Source: Deltaproteobacteria bacterium (GTDB lineage Bacteria; Desulfobacterota_D; UBA1144; Nemesobacterales; JAJCZQ01). From it: a stretch of 64,000 nt of DNA. Position 1 is the first letter of the stretch. Every line of letters begins with the position of its first letter. The position numbers and the translations under genes were made by a program. Of the stretch, positions 13,878-61,355 are shown piece by piece. Location: assembly GCA_029262335.1 (NCBI GenBank), contig JAJCZQ010000017.1:68033-132032 (forward strand), read 5' to 3'. The notes beneath the pieces were generated by a model. It was not told where the DNA came from. It saw nothing but the letters and a program-made list of their open reading frames with translations, and ran no database searches.

Positions 13878-13879
13878 TT

Positions 13880-14635
13880 ATGAATGAATTTTTATTATCG
13901 TTTTCAAAAGAGTTTTATATTATAGCAAGCGTTGTTATTGTCAGCCTTATCTCTATATTTACTATTTTTGCACTCTATTTTAACAATAAAAAATACAACA
14001 CGCTTATAATCCTGATGATCAGCCTTGCGGTAGGGACACTGCTTGGAGAAGTTTTCCTTCATATTCTGCCAGAGTCTTATGAGAAGCAGGGATTTTTAAA
14101 AACCGGGCTTCTGGCACTTTTTGGCCTGCTCTCATTTTTTATCCTGGAAAGGTATCTCCTTTGGAGAAACCTGAAAAATAAAAATAATTTAAAAACGGTT
14201 GGCCAGATGAGCCTTTTTGCTGACGGTTTATGCAACTTTACTGACGGATTTATTATAGGAGCTGCTTATCTTGTAAGTATACCACTTGGGGTAGCTACTA
14301 CATTTGCAATCTGTATTCACGAAATACCACAGGAAATCGGGGAATTCGGCATACTCATTAAGTCCGGCTTTTCAAAGACCCAGGCGGTACTTTTTAATTT
14401 TGCATCAGCGTCAATAGCAATAATTGGGGCTTTAATCGCTATATATATAGGGGTCAGGTTCAGTGGGACATCTCACCTTATTATTGCATTTGGAGCAGGG
14501 GCATATATCTATATATTGTGGTTTGGACTTTTTCCGCTACTAAGGAAAGAGTTTAAAACCTCGAGGGCAGCTGCTCATTTCCTCGCCATTGGTATTGGGC
14601 TTGGAATTATGCTTCTGATTTCCTGCATGGAGTGA
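13880..14635 (+). CDS. ZIP-family metal transporter
   Basis: ADGLCNFTDGFIIGAAYL and HEIPQEIGEFGILIKSG ZIP metal-site motifs. Start moved to ATG 13880 after the regulator stop. Confidence 0.9.
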   Translation: MNEFLLSFSKEFYIIASVVIVSLISIFTIFALYFNNKKYNTLIILMISLAVGTLLGEVFLHILPESYEKQGFLKTGLLALFGLLSFFILERYLLWRNLKNKNNLKTVGQMSLFADGLCNFTDGFIIGAAYLVSIPLGVATTFAICIHEIPQEIGEFGILIKSGFSKTQAVLFNFASASIAIIGALIAIYIGVRFSGTSHLIIAFGAGAYIYILWFGLFPLLRKEFKTSRAAAHFLAIGIGLGIMLLISCME

Positions 14636-14647
14636 TAAGATATTATT

Positions 14648-14947
14648 GTGAAAACCATACTTATAATACTTTTTTTCTCATTAATTGCCGGCCAGGGTTT
14701 TCATAACCATTTAGTATCGGACTATCTTGATAGTTCTCAGATACTATCGACTGATTCACAAGAAGAACACAACAGCCAGGATTGCCCGGCCTGTATGAGC
14801 TCTTCCGGAAAAACATTTCTAACTACTAAAAAATCAGAAGGAAATTTTGACTTTATAAAGTTTTCTTCTATGTCCTCTGATCGAATATTACTAAAAGATA
14901 ATTATCTAAATAACTCTCTTTCCTCACGTGCACCTCCGAAAGCCTGA
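14648..14947 (+). CDS. Small exported His/Cys protein with RAPP C-terminus
   Basis: Signal-like N-terminus, FHNH, CPAC and terminal SRAPPKA; in the metal operon. Confidence 0.6.
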   Translation: MKTILIILFFSLIAGQGFHNHLVSDYLDSSQILSTDSQEEHNSQDCPACMSSSGKTFLTTKKSEGNFDFIKFSSMSSDRILLKDNYLNNSLSSRAPPKA

Positions 14948-14970
14948 GGATTTTTACAGGCTTACTTTTT
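14940..14970 (+). terminator. Hairpin AAGCCTG...CAGGCTT followed by a T-rich run; attenuator/terminator candidate
   Basis: 7-bp perfect arms (14940-14946, 14957-14963) then ACTTTTTT, inside the putative operon. Confidence 0.45.
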
Positions 14971-15008
14971 TAAACCCGTTTTAAACGGAAAATTTGGAGG
15001 TGAATTAA

Positions 15009-16391
15009 ATGATTAACCGCAATAGTATTGCGTTTTTATTCCTATTTACATTATTAATTTTTTCCATACCTGCCGTGAATACTGCTGCTGCAGATACCGA
15101 GCTCGAAATGATTAAAAAGCAGATGAAGCAGATGGAAAAAAATATGAACTTAATGAACCAGAAGATTGTTGATCTGGAAGAAAAGAACAGGCAGTTGGAA
15201 ACCGAGGCCCAAAAAGACAGGGTAAGGGTAAAAGAAGAGGTAGTAGTTGAAGAACAGGCTGATATTGTAGTAGAACCTGAACAACCCGGTGGGCAGACAT
15301 TTATGGGTAAGGCGTTCCAGACTTTTAACCCCGAAATAAGTGTTATCGGACTGTTTGCTGCGGCCTACTATTCAGATGACGAACCCATAGTATTTGCCGA
15401 GAATGACCCTGAGGACACAGGTGTTAATCTGCAGGAGCTGGAGATAGGCTTTCAATCCGTAGTAGATTCGTATTTCCGTTTTGACAGTTTCCTCTCAATC
15501 AGCAGGGAAGGAATCGAGATCGAAGAAACATATGCTACGACCCTTTTATCTCTACCCGCAAACTCCCAGTTCAGAGTTGGTATTATGAGAAGTAAGTTCG
15601 GAAGGATAAACCAGCTTCACCGCCACAGCCAGAACTTTGTAACGCTTCCTATGGTTGCAGCTGAATTTCTGGGTGAGCATCTCAATCCCACTTCAATTGA
15701 GGCCAACTTCCTTATCCCTGTTCCGTGGTATATGGAGCTTAGCGCATCCGGAGGAAGCCCCGAAGTTGAAACAGCTTCTTTTGCAAGGGACGAAGACGGT
15801 AATAATCTCGGAAGGCTTCTTTATGTTTTTCATTTAGCAAATTTCTTCGATCTTAGTGATTCTGTTGGCATGTCACTTGGAGCGTCTTATGCAACGGGAT
15901 CAAACGGGACGGAACCAGGCAACAGGACAAACCTCTACGGGGTGGACTTTTTTGCCAAGTACAGGCCGCTTGCATCTCATCCTTACCAGGAACTCCAGCT
16001 TCAGTCGGAGTTTATGTACAGAGACGCGCAGACAGCTGAAGGTGACCAGGGTGACTGGGGACTTTACGCGCAGGCTGTGTACAGGTTTGCAAAAAGATGG
16101 AACGCCGGCGTACGCTACGGTATCACTGACACGAATGATCCTATCTCCCCCGAGGAAGAGCTGGTTGAAATTGAAGCAGAAGAGGAAGAAGAACATGGAC
16201 ATGAGGACGGTGAACTTGGGCTGTTCGGTAAGCAGTACAGGGTGTCGGGCATGTTGACTTTTAATCCGACTGAATTTTCAAGGATACGTCTCCAGTATGA
16301 CTACCTGAACCAGGACTTTGCAGAAGACCAGCACGGACTGTTCCTGCAGTTCCAGTACGCAATAGGTGCCCACGGAGCACATCCATATTAA
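15009..16391 (+). CDS. Outer-membrane porin-like protein with N-terminal coiled coil and His/acidic loop
   Basis: Signal peptide, coiled coil, beta-barrel-like alternation, terminal FLQFQYAIGAHGAHPY. Confidence 0.7.
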   Translation: MINRNSIAFLFLFTLLIFSIPAVNTAAADTELEMIKKQMKQMEKNMNLMNQKIVDLEEKNRQLETEAQKDRVRVKEEVVVEEQADIVVEPEQPGGQTFMGKAFQTFNPEISVIGLFAAAYYSDDEPIVFAENDPEDTGVNLQELEIGFQSVVDSYFRFDSFLSISREGIEIEETYATTLLSLPANSQFRVGIMRSKFGRINQLHRHSQNFVTLPMVAAEFLGEHLNPTSIEANFLIPVPWYMELSASGGSPEVETASFARDEDGNNLGRLLYVFHLANFFDLSDSVGMSLGASYATGSNGTEPGNRTNLYGVDFFAKYRPLASHPYQELQLQSEFMYRDAQTAEGDQGDWGLYAQAVYRFAKRWNAGVRYGITDTNDPISPEEELVEIEAEEEEEHGHEDGELGLFGKQYRVSGMLTFNPTEFSRIRLQYDYLNQDFAEDQHGLFLQFQYAIGAHGAHPY

Positions 16392-16406
16392 TAGAGGTGA
16401 TAAATA

Positions 16407-17354
16407 ATGAAAAAACTTAAAATAACAGCAGTAACAATCAGTTTATTTCTTACAATATTTGTTTTTTCAGGTTCTGCTTTGGCAGAGCTAAATATTGTAA
16501 CAACAGTCCCGGACCTCGCTTCGATAGCAAAGGATATCGGGGGTGACAATGTAAATGTAAAGAGTCTTGGCAAGGGTTATCAGAACCCTCACTATGTGGA
16601 TGCCAAGCCGAGTTACATAGTTGACCTTAACAAGGCCGATTTGCTTATATCTATAGGCCTTGACCTTGAGATTGGCTGGCTTTCTATTTTGGTAACCGGT
16701 GCAAGGAATTCAAAAATAAACAGCCCGAATTTTGATGGCAACCTCAATACTTCAACTCTGGTACCTCTCATGGATGTTTACCAGACCAAGGTCGACAGGT
16801 CGCAGGGTGATATACATCCCGAGGGGAACCCACATTTTCTGCTGGACCCCAGGAGGGCCATAATTGTTGCAAACGGTATTGCAGAAAGGTTGACAGAAAT
16901 CGACCCGGAAAATGCCCTGAGTTATGAAACTAATCTTGCGGGATTTGCAAGCAAGCTTGAAGCAAAGATCATTGAGTGGGACAAAAGTCTCGCCCCTTAC
17001 AAAGGTACAAAAATATTTACCTATCATAAACTCTGGACCTATTTTATTGACTGGGCAGATTTTGAGGAAAAGGGGACTATAGAACCCAAGCCAGGCATAC
17101 CTCCTTCACCCAGGCATGTAGCAGATTTGATTAAGATAGCTGAAAGCTCCGATGTAAAACTGGTGTTGTCTGCTAACTACTATCCGAAGAAAACAGGGGA
17201 ACAGATAGCAAGTACAGCAGGTATACCTTTCCTTTCACTTCCGGTTCAGGTAGGTGGCGAGAATGGGATAGATAGTTATACTTCGCTCATAGACAATATT
17301 GTAAACAGTATTACATCAACTCTTAAAAAAGATTTAATGGCAATTAATGAATGA
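16407..17354 (+). CDS. znuA: Metal (Zn/Mn) ABC transporter substrate-binding protein
   Basis: Cluster A-I features: NIVTTVPDLASIAKDIGGDNV, NPHYVDAKPSYI, GNPHFLLDP, FTYHKLW. Confidence 0.85.
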   Translation: MKKLKITAVTISLFLTIFVFSGSALAELNIVTTVPDLASIAKDIGGDNVNVKSLGKGYQNPHYVDAKPSYIVDLNKADLLISIGLDLEIGWLSILVTGARNSKINSPNFDGNLNTSTLVPLMDVYQTKVDRSQGDIHPEGNPHFLLDPRRAIIVANGIAERLTEIDPENALSYETNLAGFASKLEAKIIEWDKSLAPYKGTKIFTYHKLWTYFIDWADFEEKGTIEPKPGIPPSPRHVADLIKIAESSDVKLVLSANYYPKKTGEQIASTAGIPFLSLPVQVGGENGIDSYTSLIDNIVNSITSTLKKDLMAINE

Positions 17355-18051
17355 ACTTATAAAACTTGATGATGTCTCAATAGGTTTTGGCAAGACCCCT
17401 ATTATCAGGGGGATTGACCTTACCTTAACATCCGGTCAGTTTTGGGGCGTAATCGGCCCCAACGGGGGAGGTAAGTCCACGCTGTTAAAGACAGTTATAG
17501 GGCTTACCGAACCACTTGCCGGGAGTTTTAAAATTAAAGAGGGACTCAGGTTTGGGTATGTTCCGCAGCATGAAAAGTATGACAACCTGTTCCCGGTCTC
17601 TGTCGAAGAGATGGTAACAATGGGAAGGTATTCCATGGTTCCGTTCAGCAAAAAGCTGAAACAGGAGGACAGGGAAGCAGTAAGGATTTCGATAGAAAAG
17701 ACCGGTATCACTAATCTTTCAAATAAAGTGTTCAGGGAACTGTCCGGTGGTGAAAAACAAAAAGTCCTGATAGCAAAGGCTATTTGCGGAAATCCGGATG
17801 TGCTGGTCCTTGATGAACCCACTTCATCTCTAGATCTGAAAGGTGAGGCGGAGATAATGTCGCTTATAAAAGATTTGAAAGATGAATTAAATCTTACCGT
17901 AATAATGGTAAGTCATTTTGCCGACACCATAAGAAAATATGCAGATAGTATAATCCTTGTTGACAAGGATAAAGATATTTTACTTAATTGCGGTATAGAT
18001 GATGCAGTATCGAATCAACATATAAAAAGATATTTCGGCCTGCAGTCCTAA
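17347..18051 (+). CDS. znuC: Metal ABC transporter ATP-binding protein
   Basis: GPNGGGKSTLLK, ELSGGEKQKVLIAKAI, VLVLDEPTSSLD. Confidence 0.87.
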   Translation: MNELIKLDDVSIGFGKTPIIRGIDLTLTSGQFWGVIGPNGGGKSTLLKTVIGLTEPLAGSFKIKEGLRFGYVPQHEKYDNLFPVSVEEMVTMGRYSMVPFSKKLKQEDREAVRISIEKTGITNLSNKVFRELSGGEKQKVLIAKAICGNPDVLVLDEPTSSLDLKGEAEIMSLIKDLKDELNLTVIMVSHFADTIRKYADSIILVDKDKDILLNCGIDDAVSNQHIKRYFGLQS

Positions 18052-18057
18052 AATAAA

Positions 18058-18909
18058 ATGGACATTTTTATACAGTTTATACAAAGCTATTTTCTATGGA
18101 AGTCCCCGATGCTGGTTGCAGCATTTGCAGGAGCAATCTGCGGTTTTATGGGAGTCTACGTAGTACTTAGAAGGGTTGTTTTCGTGAGTGCCGCCCTTAC
18201 GCAGGTAGCGGGGTTTGGCGTAGTTCTTACATTTTACCTGCAGTCACTTTTTTTAAGCAGCCTGGTTTCTCACATTGACCCGTTTATTTTCTCCATTTTT
18301 GTTACCGTTCTTGCAGCACTTTTTTTCTCTCTAAAAAAAGACTATATGCCTATATCAATGGAAGGTGTTATAGGTTTTACTTTCCTGATATCTTCTTCAC
18401 TGATTATTATTCTTTCTGACAAGATTGTTCAGGGACACCACGAGATACATAACATTTTGTTTGGCAGTGCAGTAGTTGTCGAGCCGGACGAAGTGATAAT
18501 AGTACCTCTGGTTTCAATTATCGCATTTATTATAAATATACTTTTATTTAAAGATTTTATATTTGTCTCCTATGATTCCGAAACTGCACAGCTTTATAAA
18601 TATCCCGTAAAGTATATAAACCTTATATTTTTTATTGTTCTGGCGGTAATTCTTGCGATCACAACGAGGGCCCTTGGTGCTCTTACGGTTTTTTCACTGC
18701 TTGTACTGCCCGCACTTTCCAGTATGTATCTTAGCAGGCGTTTGATCATAATATTCATACTATCTGCTGTTTTTGGACTTTTATCAGCAGTCTTTGGTTA
18801 CTTTTTTTCATTTATTTTCTCTTTGCCAACGGGCGCAACAATGGCTTTTGCAGCATCGTTAATATTTATTTTTTCTTATATTAAGCACGAATTATTTAAT
18901 AATTCATAA
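18058..18909 (+). CDS. znuB: Metal ABC transporter permease (ABC-3 family)
   Basis: FAGAICGFMGVYVVLRRVVFVSAALTQVAGFG, typical ZnuB/MntB N-terminus. Confidence 0.88.
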   Translation: MDIFIQFIQSYFLWKSPMLVAAFAGAICGFMGVYVVLRRVVFVSAALTQVAGFGVVLTFYLQSLFLSSLVSHIDPFIFSIFVTVLAALFFSLKKDYMPISMEGVIGFTFLISSSLIIILSDKIVQGHHEIHNILFGSAVVVEPDEVIIVPLVSIIAFIINILLFKDFIFVSYDSETAQLYKYPVKYINLIFFIVLAVILAITTRALGALTVFSLLVLPALSSMYLSRRLIIIFILSAVFGLLSAVFGYFFSFIFSLPTGATMAFAASLIFIFSYIKHELFNNS

Positions 18910-26738: not shown

Positions 26739-27683
26739 TTAACCCAAGACAGACTGTATCTGCATATAATTTCTCAAATTTATAATAGAACCCGGGGGAG
26801 GTTCCATTTTAAACAGGTCGGAATGTATAGTCCTGGCTATTATTTCAATTCCATCAACTATTCTCGGCCCCGGCCTGCTAAAATACGAATTTGCATCTAC
26901 TATGTATACATGACCTTTTTGTGAAGCAGGGGTCTGATGCCATACGGGGTTTGAAGTAACTGAGTCAATCTCATTCAGGGTTTTATCGATATCAAATCCA
27001 CAGGGCATAACAAAAATATAGTGTGGGGCAAAATCAAGAATTTCTTCCCATGTTACTTTTATTGATTGCTCACCTTTAGCCCTTAGTCCGTTTTCACCAC
27101 CGGCAATTTCAACCATATCCGGGACCCAGTGTCCGGCGACAAAGGGAGGTTCGAGCCATTCGAGGCAAAAAACCCTGGGTTTGTCACGTTCTCTTCCCGA
27201 TACGGTCCTTATTTGGTCTATTCTGTTATTAAGATTATCGACTAATTCAGATGCCTTATCGGATTTTCCGGTTGCATTACCGATTGTTACTATTGATTCC
27301 AGGACCTCATTGACCGTTCCTGGTTCGAGGGAAACAATCTCCGGACTTTTATCCAGTACCTCTACAGCTTCAAGTACGGTATTACCGGATACAGCGCATA
27401 CTTCGCATAGCCCCTGTGTGAAAATGATATCAGGGTTTGCGTCTTTAAGTTTGTCTTTATCTACCAGGTAAGTGCTTTTCCCGTCTTTGGCATTTGCTGT
27501 AACAATGTCATCAATCTCTTTGCTGGTCAGGGTTTTATGGTCGATACTGCTCATAATAACCGTTTCCTTGCTGTTAACAGCTTCCGGATAATCACATTCG
27601 TGAGTGATGCCGACAAGATTATCCAGCAGATCCAGCTCACATATAATTTCAGTTGTACTTGGAAGGAATGAACATATTCTCAT
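26739..27683 (-). CDS. btuF: Cobalamin-type ABC transporter substrate-binding protein
   Basis: RICSFLPSTTEIICELDLLDNLVGITHECDYP, IFTQGLCEVCAVS; next to cob genes. Confidence 0.8.
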   Translation of the reverse strand: MRICSFLPSTTEIICELDLLDNLVGITHECDYPEAVNSKETVIMSSIDHKTLTSKEIDDIVTANAKDGKSTYLVDKDKLKDANPDIIFTQGLCEVCAVSGNTVLEAVEVLDKSPEIVSLEPGTVNEVLESIVTIGNATGKSDKASELVDNLNNRIDQIRTVSGRERDKPRVFCLEWLEPPFVAGHWVPDMVEIAGGENGLRAKGEQSIKVTWEEILDFAPHYIFVMPCGFDIDKTLNEIDSVTSNPVWHQTPASQKGHVYIVDANSYFSRPGPRIVDGIEIIARTIHSDLFKMEPPPGSIINLRNYMQIQSVLG

Positions 27684-27790
27684 ATAGACTCTCTGAATAA
27701 TAGATTTAAAATGATATATTAGTTGTTTTAATAAATGATTAACCGATAATCATACAGTTTCAAATTTATTAGCATTTTATACTGGTTTAA

Positions 27791-28564
27791 TTGCCTGCAA
27801 TGAAGAAAATGACCCCTATAGAAAAAATCAGGACAGCACTTCAGTTTCTCACAATTTTTGATCTTGGAAATAATAAAAGTGATTATGATTTGGAAGATAT
27901 TGCGGGATCAATAATTTTTTTTCCGTTTGCAGGCCTTATCCTTGGATTAATATGTGCTGTGGTATATTATGCAGTAGTTTATATTTCCGGCAACCATCTA
28001 ATTGCATCATTGTTCCCGGTTTTTCTTCTTGCTGTCCTGTCGAGAGGGCTTCACCTTGATGGTATCGCAGATACTTTTGATGCAATCCATTTTGCAAAGT
28101 ATGACAAGAAAAAAGCTCTTGAAGTGATGAAAGATAACTCTGTCGGTGCATTTGGTGCTACAGCACTTATACTGCTATTAATTACTAAATTTATATTTAT
28201 TTATTCAATCCCTTATGAAAGTATATTCCCAGTAATTGTATTAATCCCGGCAGTATCAAGATGGACATCGTCTCTTGTCGCAAGGTATACAACTCCCGCA
28301 TCGGAAAAGGGCCTTGGTTATACATTTACAGAGTATGTAACTACGGAAAATTTTGTGGTTTGTTCTATTGTTACCTTTGTAATCTCTATTATTTGTCTTG
28401 GGCTGGCAGGAGTCCTTATTTTCTTTTCTGTTGTAATATTCTCGGCCTTACTAACATGGTATTTTAACAACACTTTTGGCGGAACCACGGGAGATATATA
28501 CGGTTCTGTGATTGAAATTTCAGAGCTTTTCGGACTATTAGCTGCAATCTTAATATTAAAATGA
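27791..28564 (+). CDS. cobS: Adenosylcobinamide-GDP ribazoletransferase
   Basis: ALQFLTIF, FPFAGLILGL, RGLHLDGIADTFDA, FGGTTGDIYGSVIEISEL. Confidence 0.94.
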   Translation: MPAMKKMTPIEKIRTALQFLTIFDLGNNKSDYDLEDIAGSIIFFPFAGLILGLICAVVYYAVVYISGNHLIASLFPVFLLAVLSRGLHLDGIADTFDAIHFAKYDKKKALEVMKDNSVGAFGATALILLLITKFIFIYSIPYESIFPVIVLIPAVSRWTSSLVARYTTPASEKGLGYTFTEYVTTENFVVCSIVTFVISIICLGLAGVLIFFSVVIFSALLTWYFNNTFGGTTGDIYGSVIEISELFGLLAAILILK

Positions 28565-29328
28565 AAATCGGAACAACTTCTTATATCTACCCTGACAACA
28601 TAATCCCAAATGCAGAAAAACTCTGCGGACTTGTAGAAGACCTTCAGCTTATTCTGTTTGAAGGGGAGGATTACTCTAACCTTCCGACTGTAAATGACAT
28701 TAAGGTTTTATCTGAAATTACAAAGAACTCCGGGTTAAGCTACACTGTGCATCTTCCAATAGACCTTGACGTATGTTCATCTGAGGAAAATTTCAGGAAG
28801 TTCTCATTAACCAGAACACTTGAAATCATGGAACTCACAAACCCTCTTAATCCAACGGGTTTTGTACTTCATTTGCCCCGAAAATCGGTAATAAGTGAAG
28901 GCGAATGGCAAAGATGCGCTTCGGAATCTCTCTCGGCTATTTATGAAAAGTATCCTGTGGACAGTCTCTATGTAGAAAACCTGAGTTACCCTATTAGTTT
29001 ACTTGAACCGGTAATTAATAATTTTAATTCAAACCTTTGCCTGGATATAAGTCATGCAGTCAGGTGTGGGGATGATTGGGAAAATTATTTTGAACTGTAT
29101 TTTGACCGTATTGGAGTTATCCATTTTTACGGGCCTGAGTCTGATTCAGAAGGGCATCTGGGTCTTCAAAAAGCTGACAGGTCGTTTGTAAACAGTGCAG
29201 TAAAAAAGTTGGTGACGGACGGTTTTGACGGGCTATTAATTTTAGAGGTTTTCGGGAAGGAAGATTTTTTTGAATCTATGACAATTTTAAAAGAGGAACT
29301 TGGTAAATGGCAAAAAAAATCCTTGTAA
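28561..29328 (+). CDS. cbiR: CbiR-like cobamide-remodelling phosphodiesterase (TIM barrel)
   Basis: MKIGTTSYIYPDNIIPNAEKL...VEDLQLILFEGEDYSNLP with ATG overlap to cobS; embedded between cobS and cobU. Confidence 0.7.
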   Translation: MKIGTTSYIYPDNIIPNAEKLCGLVEDLQLILFEGEDYSNLPTVNDIKVLSEITKNSGLSYTVHLPIDLDVCSSEENFRKFSLTRTLEIMELTNPLNPTGFVLHLPRKSVISEGEWQRCASESLSAIYEKYPVDSLYVENLSYPISLLEPVINNFNSNLCLDISHAVRCGDDWENYFELYFDRIGVIHFYGPESDSEGHLGLQKADRSFVNSAVKKLVTDGFDGLLILEVFGKEDFFESMTILKEELGKWQKKSL

Positions 29329-29813
29329 CAGGCGGAATAAAAAGCGGGAAAAGTTCATTCGCACTGGAACTGGCCCGGAAGCACGAAGGCCAAAAAACAT
29401 TTCTTGCAACGGCAAAAGCATTTGACAAGGAGATGGAAGAAAAGATAAAAAGACACAGGGCAGAGCGTGGAAATGATTTTGTTACTTTGGAAGAGCATCT
29501 CAGGATCGGCAAGGTGCTTGAAAATAATTATCCTGTTTTGTTAATAGACTGTATAACAATATGGCTTTCTAATCTTTATTTTGAGTCAAATGAAGAGGAG
29601 ATTGAAAATTATAAGACCAAATTCCTGGAAAACCTTTCTAAATATAACGGTGAATTAATAGTAGTGACTAACGAAGTAGGTGGCGGCATTATTCCGGAAA
29701 ACAGTTTATCAAGGAAATACCAGTCTGAGCTCGGTAAACTCAATCAAAAAATTGCAGCAATTTGTGACGAGGTATACCTTCTGGTCTCAGGTATTCCTAT
29801 GAAGATAAAATAG
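29307..29813 (+). CDS. cobU: Adenosylcobinamide kinase/guanylyltransferase
   Basis: VTGGIKSGKSSFALEL P-loop, RHRAERG, LLIDCITIWLSNL, VTNEVGGGIIPEN. Confidence 0.93.
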   Translation: MAKKILVTGGIKSGKSSFALELARKHEGQKTFLATAKAFDKEMEEKIKRHRAERGNDFVTLEEHLRIGKVLENNYPVLLIDCITIWLSNLYFESNEEEIENYKTKFLENLSKYNGELIVVTNEVGGGIIPENSLSRKYQSELGKLNQKIAAICDEVYLLVSGIPMKIK

Positions 29814-29817
29814 ATAT

Positions 29818-30888
29818 TTATTGTTTTTCCCCCGAAACACCGGCTTTTTCAAACGTGTTCATATTGTTATACACCGAAAGTGCTGCTTCAATAATTGGAA
29901 ATGCGAGCACAGCACCGGTACCTTCACCAAGCCTGAGATCAAGATCAAGAATTGGTCTGGCATTAAGTTTCTCAAGTGTCAACTTATGTCCTTTTTCGGA
30001 ACTAATATGACTAAAAAACAGATAATCAAATACTGCGGGGCACAACTTAATTGCAATACATGCGGCGGCAGTAGAGATAAACCCATCAGCAACTACAGGT
30101 ATCCTGCTTTTCGCACATCCAAGCATAAGCCCGGCAATACCACCGATCTCATATCCCCCTACTGAAGAAAGAACATCTAATGCTGACATATTCTTTTTTC
30201 CATATTTTTTTATTGCCTTATCTACTGTTTCAACTTTTAAAATCCATGTTTCTTTGTCGATTCCAGTGCCAAATCCGACGATTTCTGAAGCTTCAAGGTC
30301 GAGACAAAGGCATATTACAGCAGCAGCTGATGTTGTATTGCCAATCCCCATTTCTCCTCCGGCAATTAAATCGTAGCCGTGTAGAGCAGATTTTTCTGCA
30401 ATTTTTATTCCGGATTCCAGGCTTTTAACAGCATTTACTGATGTCATTGCAGGGTTTTTCAGGAAATTATTTGTACCTCTGCTGATTTTTATAGAAAGAA
30501 GATCTTTCAGATCAGGGAAATCGTGGTTCACTCCGATATCTGCAACATATACATCGGTACCTGTCTGCATGGAAATTGCATTAATTGCAGCACCTTCGTC
30601 AAGGAAATTGTAGACCATCTGCGCTGTCACTTCCGGGGGATATGCACTTATGCCCTCAGCCGTGATTCCGTGGTCAGATGCAAATACAAAAACCGCCTTC
30701 TTTTCTATAGTAGGTATAACGGTTTCCTTAATTGCCACAATCCTTGATGAAATATCTTCAAGCATACCAAGGCTGTGTTTGGGTTTTGTGAGACTGTCTA
30801 ATCTTTGACGGGCTTTCTTTAAATAGTCCTCATTAAGCAGGTCAATTGATTTTATTGTCTCATTTATAATTTTAGATTTGATATTCAT
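29818..30888 (-). CDS. cobT: Nicotinate-nucleotide--dimethylbenzimidazole phosphoribosyltransferase
   Basis: FASDHGITAEGISAYPPEVTAQMVYNFL, GGEMGIGNTTSAAA, LRLGEGTGAVLAFPI. Confidence 0.96.
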   Translation of the reverse strand: MNIKSKIINETIKSIDLLNEDYLKKARQRLDSLTKPKHSLGMLEDISSRIVAIKETVIPTIEKKAVFVFASDHGITAEGISAYPPEVTAQMVYNFLDEGAAINAISMQTGTDVYVADIGVNHDFPDLKDLLSIKISRGTNNFLKNPAMTSVNAVKSLESGIKIAEKSALHGYDLIAGGEMGIGNTTSAAAVICLCLDLEASEIVGFGTGIDKETWILKVETVDKAIKKYGKKNMSALDVLSSVGGYEIGGIAGLMLGCAKSRIPVVADGFISTAAACIAIKLCPAVFDYLFFSHISSEKGHKLTLEKLNARPILDLDLRLGEGTGAVLAFPIIEAALSVYNNMNTFEKAGVSGEKQ

Positions 30889-30895
30889 TATTTAT

Positions 30896-30924
30896 ACAGG
30901 AGGCTGCTTCAAACAGCCTCCTGT
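30896..30924 (-). repeat. Perfect 11-bp stem-loop between the lipoprotein gene and cobT
   Basis: ACAGGAGGCTG-CTTCAAA-CAGCCTCCTGT. Confidence 0.7.
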
Positions 30925-30931
30925 TAATTTT

Positions 30932-32413
30932 CTATGGTAAAATTATATTGGCATTTACTGAGCCAAGCTGAGAACTTATTCCTGTTGCATAGAAAAGATT
31001 CGGCCCTGTAAAATCAACTCCCGATACTCCTTGTCTTAAAGCTAAAAATTGAACACCTTCCGGTAAGTCAGCATTTGGATCAAACGCTGCAATACCTGCT
31101 GGGAAGGGTGTAATTGCCGGGAATGGATTTACTTCGTCATTCTCTGTATTAAATACAGCAATCTGGTCAGTATTAAATAAACTTGTAAATCCAATTCCAT
31201 TATCATCAATTGCAATACTTGCAGTAAAATTTAAAGTACTTAAATCTGTAATAATAATTGGATTATCTGTTCCTCTGATTACTTGTTTATTTGCTAAATC
31301 AACTTTAAGTAAGGCACCTACAACACCTAATCCCAGGTAGGCAAATTCATTGTCGGGAGTAGCTGTCATACTTCCTGGTAAACAGACTTCCGGATTAATA
31401 TCACTTAAAGGTATTGGGATATTATTCACAATAGTATTTGTGTTGATATTAATTACGTCTATTGAGGGTTCAAAAATAGGATCACATTCAAACGTTAGAG
31501 TTGTATTTCCGCCGTTTAAGACAAATAGTTCTTCTCCAACGAGAAGCATTGCCCCCGTGTTTACATCACTAGCCTGTATTGTAAAAGATGAATTATTTTC
31601 CAGGTCAATAACTGTTATGAAACCAAGTCCTATTGGATCTGCAAACCCCTGGAGATTATTATTTGTGATATATCCCGTATTTCCTACAACAACTACACCA
31701 GAGGGGTCTTCAAACCTGCCGGTTCCAAGATTTATCATTTCATTGCAGGGTTCAAAAGGTACATTAAGTTGCCTTGTATAAAGCGTCTCACACTCAAAAG
31801 TATCCAGGTTAACAATAGCTGCAGTCTGTCCTATATTGTTTGCAACAAGTGCCTGCGTGTCATTTATAAAATCCATATTCATTGGATTTGAATCTACCGG
31901 AAGAACAATTGTGCCAATTTCTACAGGGGGTATTTGGTTTATGTCGAATACCTGGATATTATTAGAAAAACCGTTTATTACATATGCCCTGTCATCAAGT
32001 ATTTTTAATGATGCTGGGACGCTTCCAAGTACAGCCTGGTTGGGATTAACAAGGCTTTCAAGTGTGATTACAGACAGATCTGTTGTATCTATCAGTTCTT
32101 CCTCTACAAATACTTCCACAAGAAAGGTGTCATCAGTACTTCCTTCGAACGGAGGGTCAAAACTGCCGTCCTGAAGCCCGGTTGTTGTCTGGATTTCACC
32201 GGTATCCTGGTTTGTTACTACCACTTCACTCCCGGGAGGAACTGCGCCAGCCACACCACCAACTTTGATTTCCTCTTCGTCACCCTCGAATTCGGAAACA
32301 GCAAGAATCCTGTCCGCTACTACATCTCCACCGCCTCCGGTATCTGTTTCGTCACATGCAGCTGTAAAGACTGCAATGACTGCTAATAAAACTAATAAAT
32401 GAAATTTTTTCAT
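30932..32413 (-). CDS. Beta-propeller (YncE/NHL-like) surface lipoprotein, BtuG-like by context
   Basis: Lipobox VFTAAC, repeated propeller-like strands (VFDINQIPPVEIGTIVL, AAIVNLDTFECETL, VIDLENNSSFTI); directly follows btuB. Confidence 0.75.
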   Translation of the reverse strand: MKKFHLLVLLAVIAVFTAACDETDTGGGGDVVADRILAVSEFEGDEEEIKVGGVAGAVPPGSEVVVTNQDTGEIQTTTGLQDGSFDPPFEGSTDDTFLVEVFVEEELIDTTDLSVITLESLVNPNQAVLGSVPASLKILDDRAYVINGFSNNIQVFDINQIPPVEIGTIVLPVDSNPMNMDFINDTQALVANNIGQTAAIVNLDTFECETLYTRQLNVPFEPCNEMINLGTGRFEDPSGVVVVGNTGYITNNNLQGFADPIGLGFITVIDLENNSSFTIQASDVNTGAMLLVGEELFVLNGGNTTLTFECDPIFEPSIDVININTNTIVNNIPIPLSDINPEVCLPGSMTATPDNEFAYLGLGVVGALLKVDLANKQVIRGTDNPIIITDLSTLNFTASIAIDDNGIGFTSLFNTDQIAVFNTENDEVNPFPAITPFPAGIAAFDPNADLPEGVQFLALRQGVSGVDFTGPNLFYATGISSQLGSVNANIILP

Positions 32414-32429
32414 CTGTGCCTCCTTAATT

Positions 32430-34325
32430 TTAAATATTCAGCCCCAACGTGAGAAAAATTGTTCTACCCGGGAGGGGAAAATCAAAAGCATCTCTCACGT
32501 TGAGGTTGTTAAAAATATTTTTTGATTCTAAATTTGCATAGTAATTTTTCCACGAATATTTTATCCCTGCATCAAAAGTGGTCCTCGCATCTGTGGTCCT
32601 TGAGTTGCGGAATGCTGTGAGCGGGATTTTATCCAGGTAGTGCGCTTCTGCATAAACCTTTGTGTTGTACTTCTCAAATACAGCTCTTATATCAAACTGG
32701 TTTTTTGGCCTGCCCGGAAGCTGGGCACCTGTGTCATCAAGTTCACCATCGAGGAAAGTATAAGCTCCGTAAAAGCTTAGATAATCGGTTGGACTGTAAA
32801 TAACTGTTGATTCAATTCCATTCTCAAAGACTTTGCCCACATTCCTGGGCTCTATTCTCTGGGCGCTTACAAAAACAAACAGTATCAGGTCATCCACATC
32901 ACGGAGGAAATAGTTTACTTCAAAACTTAGTTTAGGAGTTTCATAAGAAATGCCTATATCAAAATCAATAGATGTTTCGTTTTCCAGATTGGGGTTTCCG
33001 CCGATAAATCCCTGTTCAGGGAAAAAAAGTTCACTGAAAGTCGGTACGCGGAATGAACGTGCAATGTTTGTTTTTATATTAAAATTTTCATAAAAGTTGT
33101 ACTTAATGCCAAGCTTTGGTGAGAATGCAAAATCGAAGGAGTCTTCACTGCCGTTTGTAAAAACAAGGTCTATCCGGGTAAGCAGGTCAATAAATAATTT
33201 GTTGTTAAAAAGAAAAAGTTCATTTCCGATAAAATAGCTAAGTGTGTTTCTGTCGGGGTTGTTAAATTCATCATTGTTCAGGTTTTCATAATTATACTGT
33301 GCAAAAGAACGAACGCTTAGATTGTCTGTCGGATACCAGGTTACGGTAGGTTTTAAACCAATGTTGTTGAGTTTGCTTTTTGTATCAATTGGGATTCCGA
33401 CTGTTGGAGTGGGGTCTGTAAATTTGAGATAATCAAAATTGTTATAGAGAATCAGTTCGAAATCTAAATTATCATTAATAAAGCTGTTTTTTGAAAACCT
33501 AAGTGTTGTAAAGTTCCTGACATCCTTCTGGTTTGAGCTGTCACTCTGAAATTCTCCAAGTCCCGGAACGCCCTTGTCATCATAATAAAACTCATTAAGA
33601 AAATCTATGTTCCAATAATTAAGACTATAATCCAGTTTTACAAGAAAGCTTTCTGCCCTGTATTCATTGTTAATTCTTCTGAGAGTAAGCCCGTTTACTG
33701 ACCTGAATTTAAAATCACCGTCTGTCTGTGCGTGGTTAAAAGACACAAGGTATCCAAGGCCTCCCGCTTTTCCCGAAGTAGCAGCATTGATAAGAAAAGT
33801 ATTAAAAGAGCCGTATGTAGCATAAAAGCTGGTAAATGGGTTGCCAGTATCTTTTGTAATGATGTTTATCACTCCGCCTATTGCATCAGACCCAGCAATT
33901 GCAGATGAGCCGCCCCTTATCACTTCAATTCTGTCAATTATCCCGGCTGGTATAGTAGAAAGGTCTACTCCTCCCCCAAAAGAGTTGTTTATTTTTATTC
34001 CGTCGAGAAGTATTACAACCTGTTCGTTGGAGCTGCCCCTGATTGAAACGGTCTTCAACTTTCCGAACCCTCCAAAATCCCGGACTGTTGTTCCGGGGGC
34101 GAGGTTTATCAGGTCGGCAGTTGTTTCAAATTCACCTTCATAATCTTCTGTATAAATAGTTGTTGAGAACGAGGAAGGGTAGTTCACCGGTGATTTGATG
34201 GAGTAGTCCTCTACTATCACGGTGTCAAGGATATTAGAATCCTGCGCACGGAGTAATCCGGGTAAAAAAAGAACTGGTATTATTAAGATATATTTTAACA
34301 AACGTATCCCCGTTGCTTTAAGCAT
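32430..34325 (-). CDS. btuB: TonB-dependent cobalamin receptor BtuB
   Basis: Plug IRGSSNEQVVILLDGIKINNSFGGGVDLSTIPAGIIDRIEVIRGGSSAIAGSDAIGGVINIITK; barrel; upstream B12 riboswitch. Confidence 0.93.
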   Translation of the reverse strand: MLKATGIRLLKYILIIPVLFLPGLLRAQDSNILDTVIVEDYSIKSPVNYPSSFSTTIYTEDYEGEFETTADLINLAPGTTVRDFGGFGKLKTVSIRGSSNEQVVILLDGIKINNSFGGGVDLSTIPAGIIDRIEVIRGGSSAIAGSDAIGGVINIITKDTGNPFTSFYATYGSFNTFLINAATSGKAGGLGYLVSFNHAQTDGDFKFRSVNGLTLRRINNEYRAESFLVKLDYSLNYWNIDFLNEFYYDDKGVPGLGEFQSDSSNQKDVRNFTTLRFSKNSFINDNLDFELILYNNFDYLKFTDPTPTVGIPIDTKSKLNNIGLKPTVTWYPTDNLSVRSFAQYNYENLNNDEFNNPDRNTLSYFIGNELFLFNNKLFIDLLTRIDLVFTNGSEDSFDFAFSPKLGIKYNFYENFNIKTNIARSFRVPTFSELFFPEQGFIGGNPNLENETSIDFDIGISYETPKLSFEVNYFLRDVDDLILFVFVSAQRIEPRNVGKVFENGIESTVIYSPTDYLSFYGAYTFLDGELDDTGAQLPGRPKNQFDIRAVFEKYNTKVYAEAHYLDKIPLTAFRNSRTTDARTTFDAGIKYSWKNYYANLESKNIFNNLNVRDAFDFPLPGRTIFLTLGLNI

Positions 34326-52963: not shown

Positions 52964-53059
52964 CTAAATACCCGGAATGAGGGGTACTCCGCATCCGCAT
53001 CCGGAAAGTATAATAGTTACAGCTATGAGTAATAGTAGACCAGGTTTTATAAAATTCAT
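52964..53059 (-). CDS. 31-aa lipoprotein, MNFIKPGLLLLIAVTIILSGCGCGVPLIPGI (absent from ORF track)
   Basis: Lipobox LSGC. Confidence 0.5.
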   Translation of the reverse strand: MNFIKPGLLLLIAVTIILSGCGCGVPLIPGI

Positions 53060-53086
53060 AAGTTAATTCCGGGATAAAGTATTAAT

Positions 53087-53242
53087 TTATTTTGTTACAG
53101 GTGACTGAACCTTGTAACCTTTTTCTGTCATTATATATGCTGCACTTCCGCCTGCTGCTGCTCCTGCTACAAGAGCCACGCAGCTGGTTCCAAGAAGAGA
53201 AACACATATAACCATCGGTATTAAAAGATTTTTTAATTTCAT
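53087..53242 (-). CDS. 51-aa lipoprotein, MKLKNLLIPMVICVSLLGTSCVALVAGAAAGGSAAYIMTEKGYKVQSPVTK (absent from ORF track)
   Basis: Lipobox LGTSC followed by an Ala/Gly-rich segment. Confidence 0.6.
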   Translation of the reverse strand: MKLKNLLIPMVICVSLLGTSCVALVAGAAAGGSAAYIMTEKGYKVQSPVTK

Positions 53243-53307
53243 TTTTCAGACCTAATAAGTTTTGGTCATTAGTATACTAAATTATTGGGTGATTTAAAAG
53301 TGGTTTG

Positions 53308-53880
53308 TTATGGGCTGCACGTTTCACACTCTTCACAGTTCTCATTCGGCCAGTCCCCGCCAATAAGCTTTCCGTTATCATCAAGCTTAAATTTACAACA
53401 GTCGATAAAGTGCTGCTTTATCATCTCTTTTCCCCTAAGAATCCTGGATTTGGCCGCAGGCAGGGATATGCTGAGTGTCTCAGCAACATCTTTCTGCTTC
53501 ATGCCCCGAAGCTCGCTGAGTTCGACAGAGTCTCTGTATTTTTCGGGCAGGATTTTCACAAATGAACTGAGGCATGCTTTTATCTGGCAGTAAAGATCAC
53601 CTTCAACTTCTATTTCCGGCACTATGAAGTCTTCATTGAACTCAATATTTATTTTGTTTCCGCTGTTCCTGTAATAATCAATAATTGTATTTCGTGCAAT
53701 GCTGTATATCCATGCAGGAAGTTTTTCGGATTCTGTAAGGCTTTCTATGTTTTTATGGATCTTTATGAAAACATTCTGGAGAATATCTTCAGCTTCAACT
53801 TTATTGTTTACCCTTTTGTAGATAAAGGAATAGAGCTGCTTATTAAAATTGTCCCAGACTTCTTCAGTAGAGTAATTCAT
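53308..53880 (-). CDS. sigZ: SigZ-type ECF RNA polymerase sigma factor with C-terminal Cys cluster
   Basis: Region 2 DILQNVFIKIHKNI...AWIYSIARNTIIDYYR, region 4 LPEKYRDSVELSELRGMKQKDVAETLSISLPAAKSRILRGKE, then CCKFKLDDNGKLIGGDWPNENCEECETC. Confidence 0.88.
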   Translation of the reverse strand: MNYSTEEVWDNFNKQLYSFIYKRVNNKVEAEDILQNVFIKIHKNIESLTESEKLPAWIYSIARNTIIDYYRNSGNKINIEFNEDFIVPEIEVEGDLYCQIKACLSSFVKILPEKYRDSVELSELRGMKQKDVAETLSISLPAAKSRILRGKEMIKQHFIDCCKFKLDDNGKLIGGDWPNENCEECETCSP

Positions 53881-53917
53881 CGTATATATGTCCTGATTGT
53901 CATTGTGAGTAAAATGA

Positions 53918-53939
53918 AGCAATCTCATAAGAGATTGCT
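53918..53939. repeat. Inverted repeat AGCAATCTC-ATAA-GAGATTGCT in the metallothionein-like/sigma intergenic region
   Basis: 9-bp perfect arms, 4-nt loop. Confidence 0.7.
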
Positions 53940-53985
53940 CCGTTGATTTTAAATATCTTAAAGAATCAATAATTACTAACTGATA

Positions 53986-54111
53986 CTATTTAGTACATGC
54001 GCATGAGCAGTTGCAGACACCGTTGGCACAGTCGCAGCCTTCGCATTTACAGCTTTCATCACAGTTGCAGCCAGCGCAGTCACATTTCTTTTCTATTATA
54101 AGATTCTTCAT
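53986..54111 (-). CDS. Metallothionein-like 41-aa Cys-rich peptide (absent from ORF track)
   Basis: MKNLIIEKKCDCAGCNCDESCKCEGCDCANGVCNCSCACTK: 12 Cys in repeated CxCxxCxC; AGGAG a few nt upstream of ATG. Confidence 0.75.
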   Translation of the reverse strand: MKNLIIEKKCDCAGCNCDESCKCEGCDCANGVCNCSCACTK

Positions 54112-54163
54112 GATTATCTCCTTTTATGGGATTGTTTACCCATTTGTATATTTTACCTATAAA

Positions 54164-54189
54164 GACGGAGGAGTATGTAAAAAGATGCA
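54164..54189 (-). promoter_or_regulatory. ECF-type promoter candidate TGCATC-N16-CGTC upstream of the metallothionein-like ORF
   Basis: Minus strand TGCATCTTTTTACATACTCCTCCGTCTTTATA resembles TGTAAC-N16-CGTC ECF promoters. Confidence 0.45.
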
Positions 54190-54212: not shown

Positions 54213-54259
54213 TTAAAATGAAAAAGGGGATACAGTTTGTATCCCCTTTTTCATTTTAA
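54213..54259. terminator. Bidirectional intrinsic terminator, 22-bp perfect stem and 3-nt loop
   Basis: TTAAAATGAAAAAGGGGATACA-GTT-TGTATCCCCTTTTTCATTTTAA downstream of the sigma-70 gene. Confidence 0.9.
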
Positions 54260-54274
54260 TTTTATATTTTATTG

Positions 54275-55426
54275 TTACTGGCTTTTTAAGAAGCTTTCGA
54301 GATGGTCTTTGATATTGGAGTTTGCGAGTTTGCCAAGTGCGGCTTTTTCAATCTGCCTTATTCTTTCCCTTGTGAGATTAAACCTCTTACCAATTTCATC
54401 AAGAGTATAAGTACTCTGGCGGTCAATGCCGAACCTGAGTCTTATTATCTCTTCTTCTCTTTCGTTAAGAAGCAGAAGAGCTTCTTTTAATTTCTCTGCA
54501 AGAGAAGCTTTTGCAATTACTGAGTCTGGAATCATAGCTTCTTTGTCGGAGACAGAATCAAGAAGAGTTGTCTTCTCTCCGTCGAGTACCGGTGTATCAA
54601 GGCTTATTGCATCATTTGTAGAATTAAGAATTCTTTTTACAACTTCAACAGATATGCCGGACTCATCAGCAATTTCCTGCGGGGTGGGTTTTCTTTCCAT
54701 CTCTTTAGCAAGCTTAGCGCTTGTTTTGTAGACTCGGTTTGCCTGCTCCAAAAGATAAACGGGGACTTTGATCGTTCTTGTCTGGCCCTGGAGCGCCCTG
54801 AGTATTGCCTGGTGTATCCACCATGAAGCATAAGTCGAAAATTTATAACCCTTGGTATGGTCAAATCTTTCAACAGCCCTCATTAGTCCAAGGTTTCCTT
54901 CCTGAATAAGATCAGGCAGTGGAAGACCTCTGCTCATATATCTTCTTGAAATTGTAATTACCAGTCTAAGGTTAGCTTTTACAAATCTTTGTTTTAGTCT
55001 TTGTGCCCATTCGAAAAATACTTTTGTGAATGCGGCAAGGCAGTCAATTCTTTTATTAAGAACTTTCATCTTTGAGGGATTCTTACGAATCCTTGATTTC
55101 ATTGCAGTAAGCTGGGTAACAAATGAATTCAGTTCTCTTGCTTTTGCTTCACATTTTTTAATTTTTGCTGAAATTTCAACTTCCTGTTTGGCTGTAAACA
55201 GTGGTTCAACCGCCATATCTTTAAAATAGACATAAAGAAGCCTGAGCTGCTCATCAGGAACCCACTCATCTTCTTCATCTTTCTTTTTTGCGGCTTCTAT
55301 ACTGCTTTCGTCAATTTCAATTATTCCGTCTTCTATGTCGATGTCGATATCGTCATCACCAACAAAAGGCTCGAAATCTTCAGCATTTGCTTTTTTTTCA
55401 CTCATATCTTTATATTCGACTTCCAT
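54275..55426 (-). CDS. RpoD/RpoS-like sigma-70 factor
   Basis: DLIQEGNLGLMRAVERFDHTKGYKFSTYASWWIHQAILRAL...LDEIGKRFNLTRERIRQIEKAALGKL. Confidence 0.95.
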   Translation of the reverse strand: MEVEYKDMSEKKANAEDFEPFVGDDDIDIDIEDGIIEIDESSIEAAKKKDEEDEWVPDEQLRLLYVYFKDMAVEPLFTAKQEVEISAKIKKCEAKARELNSFVTQLTAMKSRIRKNPSKMKVLNKRIDCLAAFTKVFFEWAQRLKQRFVKANLRLVITISRRYMSRGLPLPDLIQEGNLGLMRAVERFDHTKGYKFSTYASWWIHQAILRALQGQTRTIKVPVYLLEQANRVYKTSAKLAKEMERKPTPQEIADESGISVEVVKRILNSTNDAISLDTPVLDGEKTTLLDSVSDKEAMIPDSVIAKASLAEKLKEALLLLNEREEEIIRLRFGIDRQSTYTLDEIGKRFNLTRERIRQIEKAALGKLANSNIKDHLESFLKSQ

Positions 55427-55588: not shown

Positions 55589-56200
55589 TTATTTTGCGGA
55601 GCTAAAGTTTTGTGCTACCTGATTCCAGTTAACAACGTTCCACCACGAACTTACGTAATCAGGTCTTCTGTTCTGATAATTCAGATAATAAGCATGCTCC
55701 CATACATCAAGTCCCAGTACAGGTTTTAATCCATCAGAGATGGGGTTGTCCTGATTAGGGGTTGAAGTAACAACGAGGTTGCCGTTACCATCTACACAAA
55801 GCCATGCCCATCCGCTGCCAAACCTTGTTGCAGCAGCTTTTGAGAACTGGTCTTTAAAGTTATCAAAACTTCCGAAAGCACTATTTATTGCATCAGCCAA
55901 TTCGCCTTCAGGGTTTCCACCACCACCTGGACCCATGCATGGCCAGAAGAGACTGTGATTTGCATGACCGCCACCATTGTTACGGACTGCATTTCTGATG
56001 TTTTCGGGTATAGAATTTAAATCTGAGATCAGGTCTTCAACTGATTTTTCCTGAAGCTCAGGATGATTTTCAAGAGCAGCATTAAGGTTATTAACATAAC
56101 CCTGGTGATGTTTTCCATGGTGTATTTCCATGGTTTTAGCGTCAATATTCGGCTCTAAGGCGTCATAGCTATAAGGTAAATCCGGTAATACATGTGCCAT
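55589..56200 (-). CDS. sodB: Fe/Mn superoxide dismutase
   Basis: [61 protein letters not shown]. Confidence 0.97.
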
Positions 56201-60269: not shown

Positions 60270-61355
60270 ATGAAACAGGTTTTGATTTATACGGTATTGT
60301 TTTCATCTCTATTTTATATTGGTTTTAATATTCTAAGTGCCGAAGAAAGTTCTCCGGCCCCAGATGTGCTTCAGCAAAAAAGTGAAAATCCCGTCGAACT
60401 CGGTCATGTAAACTGGCTAAGAAATTTTGACGAGGCTAAAGCAAAAGCAGTAAAAGAGAATAAACCATTACTTGTGTTTTTCCAGGAAGTGCCAGGGTGC
60501 AGTACTGCTTCCGGATATGGTAAAAGGGTTATGACTCACCCATTGATAATTGAAGCAGCTGAGTCACTGTTTGTTCCGGTAGCTATTTATAACAATGTGG
60601 GTGGGCACGACCGTAAAATACTTGATTCATTTAACGAACCATCATGGAACAATCCTGTTGTGAGGATTATAACCCCGGATGGTAAAGCACTTTCTCCACG
60701 TTTAAACGGCGACTATACAAGACTTGGCCTGGTTAATTCCATGGTTTTAGCCCTCAAAAATAATAATATGGAAGTTCCGCAATATCTTGAGATCTTACAA
60801 AAAGAACTTTCTGCAAATAAATTACTGAAAGATAACGCTGTATTTTCTATGTATTGTTTCTGGACCGGGGAAGCAGGGCTTGGGAATATAGATGGTGTGG
60901 TATCAACACAGCCGGGATTTATGGGTGGCCGGGAAGTAGTACGGGTTGAATTCGATACAAACATAATTTCTTATAAACAGTTGGTTAACACGGCCAGGAA
61001 AAAGAATGTTTCAAAAGTAGTATATGTAAAAAACAGTTCCGAAAGAGCAGCAGCCGAGCAGATACTTGGCAAAAGTTCAGTTTTGGATGCAGGTACCTTC
61101 AGGCAGGATAATGAACCAAAATACTATATGTCCAAAACACTATACAGATATATACCAATGATGCCTCTTCAGGCATCACTTGTAAATTCAGCGATAGGAA
61201 ACCGTATTTCACCGGACAGGTATCTGTCGCCAAGGCAGCTTGAAATACTTTCTTTTGTGAAAACTAACCCCAATCGCAACTGGAAAAATACAATTGGCAG
61301 TACGGAAATCACTTCAGCCTGGAACGAGACAATAAAAACTGCAAAAAGCAGTTAA
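60270..61355 (+). CDS. VPGUxT-like thioredoxin-like protein (Cys form) fused to an MsrA-like domain
   Basis: LLVFFQEVPGCSTASGYGKRVMTHPLI and YCFWTGEAGLGNIDGVVSTQPGFMGGREVVRVEFDTNIISYKQLV. Confidence 0.65.
   Translation: MKQVLIYTVLFSSLFYIGFNILSAEESSPAPDVLQQKSENPVELGHVNWLRNFDEAKAKAVKENKPLLVFFQEVPGCSTASGYGKRVMTHPLIIEAAESLFVPVAIYNNVGGHDRKILDSFNEPSWNNPVVRIITPDGKALSPRLNGDYTRLGLVNSMVLALKNNNMEVPQYLEILQKELSANKLLKDNAVFSMYCFWTGEAGLGNIDGVVSTQPGFMGGREVVRVEFDTNIISYKQLVNTARKKNVSKVVYVKNSSERAAAEQILGKSSVLDAGTFRQDNEPKYYMSKTLYRYIPMMPLQASLVNSAIGNRISPDRYLSPRQLEILSFVKTNPNRNWKNTIGSTEITSAWNETIKTAKSS

Follow-up and report, generated by a model that had tools for sequence, protein, structure and literature searches.

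The window analyzed here, a 64,000-nucleotide stretch of a draft genome (2.09 Mb in 51 contigs) from an order represented by Candidatus Dadabacteria records, carries on its minus strand a predicted unit in which a promoter, a gene for a Cys-rich peptide, a stem-loop, and the ECF sigma factor gene sigZ follow one another, and which is conserved across phyla. Comparative sequence analysis established the conserved pairing of peptide gene and sigZ, the predicted promoter, a near-single-locus regulon, the stem-loop, the conservation of the sigma factor's cysteines, the clade in which the paired sigmas fall, and the linkage of sister SigZ loci to arsenic genes. We consider it fairly probable that the window's SigZ is a CorE-like ECF sigma factor that senses metal(loid)s directly, is autoregulated, and is devoted to a metallothionein-like peptide, the whole forming a self-contained unit for soft metal(loid)s.

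Layout of the locus

The minus-strand elements named in a preliminary description of this DNA, namely an ECF-like promoter, a 12-Cys peptide, a hairpin, a sigma factor with a CC...CEECETC tail, and two small lipoproteins, were all found in the window sequence and its open reading frames (ORFs), in this order:

54164-54189, minus strand: SigZ-type ECF promoter, -35 TGCATC(TTTTT), 16-bp spacer, -10 CGTC(T), predicted from the sequence and from relatives
54118-54123, minus strand: ribosome-binding site AAGGAG of the peptide gene, from the sequence
53986-54111, minus strand: metallothionein-like peptide, 41 aa, 12 Cys; an ORF conserved upstream of SigZ
53916-53941, minus strand: stem-loop between the peptide gene and sigZ, terminator/attenuator-like, from folding (z -3.3)
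53308-53880, minus strand: sigZ, ECF sigma factor, 190 aa, from TIGR02959 and the Sigma70_r2 and Sigma70_r4_2 domains
53572-53574, minus strand: linker Cys C103, between sigma2 and sigma4, from the alignment of 88 SigZ proteins
53311-53400, minus strand: C-terminal Cys tail, C161 C162 ... C182xxC185xxC188, candidate metal(loid) sensor, from the alignment
53087-53242, minus strand: 51-aa lipoprotein ORF, from the window sequence
52964-53059, minus strand: 31-aa lipoprotein ORF, from the window sequence

The promoter letters at 54164-54189 read TGCATC TTTTTACATACTCCTC CGTC on the minus strand. The ATG at 53880 is more likely the start of sigZ than that at 53928: it is where homology to relatives sets in, and the upstream alternative falls within the stem-loop. 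The two lipoproteins, which had been counted as members of the module, are not conserved with the sigma factor. The 51-aa protein, which is DUF3568-like, was removed from the module because its relatives are confined to two genomes without the peptide-SigZ unit and are missing from the other SigZ-bearing Dadabacteria, and the 31-aa protein was rejected as LptM with 16.6 bits against NF047847 (cutoff 27.7 bits), being at best a sub-threshold LptM-like product.

Directly upstream of the module, a minus-strand gene (54275-55426) encodes a 383-aa sigma-70 factor of the RpoD/RpoS type, whose matches all fell below curated cutoffs; a strong stem-loop terminator lies at this gene (54214-54258), and the arrangement of such a factor beside the peptide gene was absent from the other SigZ loci examined. 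A Mn/Fe superoxide dismutase gene lies near the module at 55589-56200, and a plus-strand gene at 60270-61355 fuses a Thioredoxin_7 domain to a partial peptide-methionine-sulfoxide-reductase-like domain. From translations read by eye, a Fur/Zur-like regulator, a ZIP-like permease, an outer-membrane-like protein, and a ZnuABC-like zinc ABC transporter cluster on the plus strand at 13431-18909, which suggests zinc-responsive control elsewhere in the window, and a cobalamin-type cluster (BtuF-like, CobS, CobU, and CobT) stands beside a TonB-dependent receptor at 26739-34325. An Rfam search of the window returned chance matches only.

Conservation of the peptide-sigZ unit

SigZ loci in the window's order were found with TIGR02959, and in 11 of the 13 examined a short Cys-rich ORF lies just 5′ of sigZ on the same strand. 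Among 84,980 species genomes scanned, 80 SigZ loci from many phyla were found; with Dadabacterial loci included, 36 of 88 loci have a Cys-rich ORF within 450 bp upstream (35 by a count that passed over L022, whose frame begins farther upstream), compared with 0/20 other ECF loci, 10/2096 random positions, and 1/1760 shuffled upstream regions. In a maximum-likelihood tree, 29 peptide-associated sigmas stand on one side of a branch with an SH-aLRT value of 96, and all 29 of this clade share the order of ECF promoter, Cys-rich peptide of 31-52 aa, stem-loop, and sigZ. Its members come from Dadabacteria (the window included), Flavobacteriaceae, Pontibacter, a Bacteroidia MAG, and Balneolaceae. The other seven of the 36 loci belong to Marinifilum, which lies on another branch and has a different, 84-aa Cys-rich ORF.

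The proposal that the promoter, the 12-Cys peptide, the hairpin, and the sigma factor form one unit was thus borne out, the unit being conserved across phyla and its motif near-unique to sigZ loci. The comparison of SigZ neighborhoods that had been suggested gave a divided answer: an upstream Cys-rich ORF accompanies sigZ throughout the peptide clade and is missing from most SigZ loci outside it, where arsenic genes often take its place. Many of the compared genomes are drafts. A same-genus relative of the window's genome (83% complete) showed no SigZ, and the unit is therefore accessory or was missed there. Two other genes recur near sigZ, a SpoIIAA-like (STAS) gene downstream of it in six Dadabacterial loci (L013, L017, L078, L079, L093, and L111) and a carboxymuconolactone-decarboxylase (AhpD-like) gene on the opposite strand in L078, L080, and L100; neither showed a SigZ motif.

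The Cys-rich peptide

The window peptide, MKNLIIEKKCDCAGCNCDESCKCEGCDCANGVCNCSCACTK, comprises 41 residues, of which 12 are Cys in a CxC/CxxC arrangement, and contains no F, W, Y, or H. The ORF is not due to chance: no small ORF with at least eight Cys appeared when the window was mononucleotide-shuffled 20 times, and the position of the peptide ORF is conserved in 29 SigZ loci. The peptides of relatives span 31-52 aa and carry 8-14 Cys. Little besides Cys is conserved in their alignment, and homology and convergence are hard to separate for this reason. A peptide profile detected no copies away from SigZ in 44 relatives, although the same profile also missed several true peptides, that of the window among them.

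Bacterial metallothioneins such as cyanobacterial SmtA and mycobacterial MymT are very small, with about 30% Cys in CxC and CxxC motifs and no aromatic residues. The window peptide resembles them in size, Cys share, motifs, and absent aromatics, and its composition agrees with that used to recognize metallothioneins (small, 20-35% Cys in CxC/CxxC, few or no aromatics). It differs in that it matched no Pfam or NCBIfam model, including those of described bacterial metallothionein families, in the 31-52-aa range of its relatives, and in its apparent control by a linked sigma factor instead of a metal repressor. Profile matches in the PDB were all to metallothioneins or a metallothionein fusion and were insignificant (best E 0.03). 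We infer that the peptide binds or sequesters a metal(loid).

That the peptide is instead itself a regulator, acting as a metal-dependent and unusually tiny anti-sigma factor (or as a metal donor) for SigZ, strikes us as highly unlikely. That it invariably accompanies SigZ, in collinear order, in all 29 clade members and that no other anti-sigma gene is adjacent is what such a role would predict, but its non-Cys sequence is hardly conserved, unlike a protein-protein interface, and its composition, like its best albeit insignificant PDB profile matches, is that of a metallothionein. Moreover, SigZ proteins outside the clade retain the Cys tail without having the peptide, and must in any case be controlled in some other way.

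The stem-loop

A stable stem-loop was present in 26 of 27 spacers between peptide gene and sigZ (mean z -4.5), compared with a mean z of -0.85 upstream of 52 SigZ genes without the peptide, ten of which were below -2. The sequence of the stem-loop varies between lineages, and its position is constant. A clear T-run follows the stem just before the sigZ start in Flavobacteriaceae; the run is short and weak in the window and not obvious in other Dadabacteria. A constant position combined with a changing sequence is as expected for a terminator/attenuator or an mRNA stabilizer that would give much peptide and little sigma factor. Our choice of attenuation over mRNA stabilization is a guess, because the T-run of the window's hairpin is weak.

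The promoter motif and the predicted regulon

Dadabacterial peptide genes share a common promoter, TGCRTCTTTTt-N-CGTCTwTA, which precedes the Cys-rich ORF in all Dadabacterial SigZ loci of the peptide type. A search pattern derived from Dadabacteria alone, TGCRTCTTTTN{11,13}CGTCT, matched 17 times in 29 genomes of the window's order, and its reversed control matched 0 times. Thirteen of the 17 matches lie at SigZ loci as promoters of the Cys-rich peptide gene, with a single copy per peptide-type genome and two in the genome that has two sigZ genes, and those in G021 and G031 lie ahead of a Cys-rich peptide at a contig end that cuts off sigZ. The match in G005 was discarded as a SigZ promoter since it falls inside an NADH-dehydrogenase-like coding gene. 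In G037 the motif stands upstream of copA, making one of 14 peptide-type Dadabacterial genomes with the motif there; copA was rejected as a general SigZ target, its orthologs in other Dadabacteria being without the motif. In the window's genome the motif occurs once, upstream of its own peptide-sigZ operon, and no second SigZ target was found there even with a looser motif, whose four extra matches in relatives were set aside as lying inside coding frames.

A second test set consisted of the 40 genomes behind named SigZ loci (about 184 Mb), among them Bacteroidota, Bacillota, Chloroflexota, SAR324, Thiotrichaceae, a cyanobacterium, and others. All 20 exact matches in this set lay within about 6 kb of sigZ, and the reversed control gave four matches. 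Because all 20 sit near sigZ even though only Dadabacterial sequences had gone into the motif, TGCRTCTTTT-N12-CGTCT is very likely the SigZ promoter, and the predicted SigZ regulon is essentially one locus per genome. Variants of the motif were seen in other lineages, a close one in Flavobacteriaceae (TTTGCGTCTTTTT ... (A/T)GTCT), a weaker one in Pontibacter, and a near one in Marinifilum (TGCGTCC ... CGTCTACC), where it precedes the Cys-rich ORF.

The sigma factor and its cysteines

The window's sigma factor scored 183.1 bits against TIGR02959 (SigZ; curated cutoff 168.65), in agreement with its earlier assignment as a SigZ-type ECF sigma, and matched the Sigma70_r2 and r4_2 domains; against NF007215 it scored 196.3, below the cutoff of 212. 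Five Cys are near-invariant in an alignment of 88 SigZ proteins, one in the linker (C103, 76 proteins) and four in the tail (C161, 87; C162, 83; C182, 76; C185, 77). Within the peptide clade, C103, C161, C182, and C185 are each present in 29/29 proteins and C162 in fewer. The window's tail reads CC-x19-CxxCxxC, and the family pattern is CC...C(x)0-2C. AlphaFold predicted sigma2 and sigma4 confidently and the Cys tail, which follows the last sigma4 helix, with low confidence, for which reason an argument for a metal site from this model was ruled out. The lack of an adjacent anti-sigma gene with a ZAS domain, noted earlier for the window, holds there and at every testable SigZ locus, no ORF of the ZAS type (HxxxCxxC) having been found next to sigZ in any of 87.

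This pattern suggests that the tail and linker Cys of SigZ probably bind a thiophilic metal(loid) directly and thereby switch the sigma factor on, although the tail Cys could hold structural Zn instead. The latter would suit an ordinary ECF sigma factor, under an unlinked anti-sigma or transcriptional control only, with the peptide as a generic stress protein. Many ECF sigmas do have partners, the tail Cys are near-invariant whatever the target genes and so could be structural, and autoregulation alone could make a switch. We nevertheless hold this reading to be quite unlikely given the 87 loci without an adjacent ZAS-type ORF, the convergence of sister lineages on arsenic and Cys-rich targets, and the precedent of CorE for direct sensing (PMC3107203).

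Neighbors of SigZ outside the peptide clade

Pfam and NCBIfam scans of the neighbors of about 65 non-redundant SigZ loci identified arsenite methyltransferase (ArsM; NF008823) as the commonest, with eight proteins on the downstream side and seven on the upstream side, followed by DUF2703 (7 and 2) and ArsP_1 permeases (2 and 3); ArsR accounted for 3 of the 98 downstream neighbor proteins scanned. Outside the peptide clade, 30 of 59 SigZ loci had at least one of ArsM, ArsP, ArsI, or DUF2703, compared with arsenic genes in 0/29 peptide-clade loci and in 0/21 control ECF loci, which are shorter than the SigZ loci, most SigZ arsenic-gene matches lying no more than 1.3 kb away. No credible ArsM match was found in the window's genome. 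The motif stands directly upstream of ArsM in L073, L081, and L130, of ArsI in L121 (NF041414, 191 bits, cutoff 116), of DUF2703 in L103 and L108, and of an ArsP-type permease in L074, and in L072 and L085 it precedes FAD-dependent oxidoreductases and Cys-rich small ORFs. These last (L072:5096-5380 and L085:4810-5070), with the one upstream of sigZ in L057, L059, L064, and L068, make three further Cys-rich small ORFs outside the peptide clade; they look unrelated, and each stands behind the motif or a near variant of it. Genes for DUF2703, with Cys-rich products, lie beside SigZ in L086, L103, L104, L108, L122, L124, L128, L129, and L131, making this domain, which we take to be thioredoxin-like, a candidate for an arsenic-linked function.

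The targets of SigZ thus appear to be either arsenic functions or small Cys-rich proteins, and both fit a thiophilic metal(loid) as the signal. It seems unlikely that SigZ is a thiol or redox sensor that responds to electrophile or oxidative stress through disulfide formation by its tail and linker Cys, or through loss of a structural Zn, with the peptide serving to buffer thiols and not to store metal. Paired Cys (CC, CxxC) can be redox-active, the superoxide dismutase gene lies close to the module, and the presumably thioredoxin-like DUF2703 recurs at sister SigZ loci; on the other hand, the neighbors of sister SigZ are arsenic-specific (ArsM, ArsI, and ArsP type) rather than thioredoxin or peroxidase genes, the superoxide dismutase gene lacks the SigZ motif, the genome's single copy being elsewhere, and one genome has the motif at copA. 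For direct metal(loid) sensing, the reading that we prefer, the inducer is most likely As(III) or Cu(I), arsenic being favored by the neighbors of the SigZ family, and copper by the precedent of CorE and by the single copA gene of the window's order that follows the motif.

Discussion

Direct sensing by SigZ would work as follows. A thiophilic metal(loid) entering the cell would meet a small number of SigZ molecules, bind to their linker and tail Cys, and activate the sigma factor, whose complex with RNA polymerase would recognize TGCRTCTTTT-N12-CGTCT, in the window's genome at its own operon alone. The 41-aa metallothionein-like peptide would be made in excess and chelate the metal(loid), while the stem-loop would attenuate read-through so that little sigma factor is made and positive feedback stays limited. 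Sequestration of the metal(loid) by the peptide would finally let SigZ relax and turn the unit off.

In Myxococcus xanthus, the Cys-rich tail of CorE makes promoter binding copper-dependent, no anti-sigma factor was found, and the targets are copB, cuoB, and probably copA (PMC3107203). SigZ resembles CorE and CorE2 (formerly ECF44, now ECF238) in being an ECF sigma with a short Cys-rich C-terminal extension and a linker Cys, in lacking a linked anti-sigma gene, and in metal-detoxification targets that include copA (PMC3107203, PMC8999054). The two differ in the tail, where CorE has the invariant Cys 181, 184, 192, and 194 (C-x2-C-x7-C-x-C) and SigZ has CC...CxxC, and in the linker between sigma2 and sigma4, where CorE has CxC and SigZ a single conserved Cys. 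Promoters differ as well, that of SigZ being TGCRTC/CGTC whereas an AAC -35 element was used to look for the CorE site, and in contrast to CorE the predicted SigZ regulon is essentially one locus, with the Cys-rich peptide or arsenic genes as targets.

SigZ was named in 1997 in Bacillus subtilis, according to a title cited in PMC2700814, and has been equated with ECF238 (PMC9239204), the group into which CorE-like factors were merged and in about 85% of which the linker CxC is missing (PMC8999054). The open-access literature that we searched yielded no function, promoter, or regulon for SigZ. Because the CorE Cys pattern and the linker CxC are both absent, we did not file the window's SigZ as CorE-like by class, and it appears to be a member of the uncharacterized majority of ECF238. 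Nearly all members of TIGR02959 (ECF238), the family of B. subtilis SigZ and of the window's sigma factor, carry the Cys tail, and the peptide-associated clade is distinct from other SigZ as a branch of its own. Operons of the ars type (ArsM, ArsI, or ArsP type under ArsR) contain the same effector genes that occur beside sister SigZ, and differ in their regulator, ArsR, from the sister SigZ loci with their linked ECF sigma and its own promoter motif.

A wider reading, which we offer tentatively, is that most SigZ of ECF238 are one-component sigma factors, spread across phyla, that sense trivalent arsenicals (or Cu(I)) through the linker Cys and the CC...CxxC tail and each act on essentially one locus through TGCRTCTTTT-N12-CGTCT, and that one branch may have exchanged its arsenic-methylation targets for an attenuated operon that encodes a new metallothionein-like peptide family.

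The Cys-rich peptides of 31-52 aa add a family that gene callers may skip, and the peptide-sigZ module as a whole would be easily missed by standard gene finders. For SigZ, the comparison supplies a candidate promoter and a predicted regulon, and it points to thiophilic metal(loid)s as the class of signal and to a candidate sensor in the protein. A sigma factor with its own operon as its sole strong target would be a minimal and portable switch, possibly responsive to arsenic or copper, and would be useful as a component of biosensors and as a model case for how metal sensing moved into a sigma factor.
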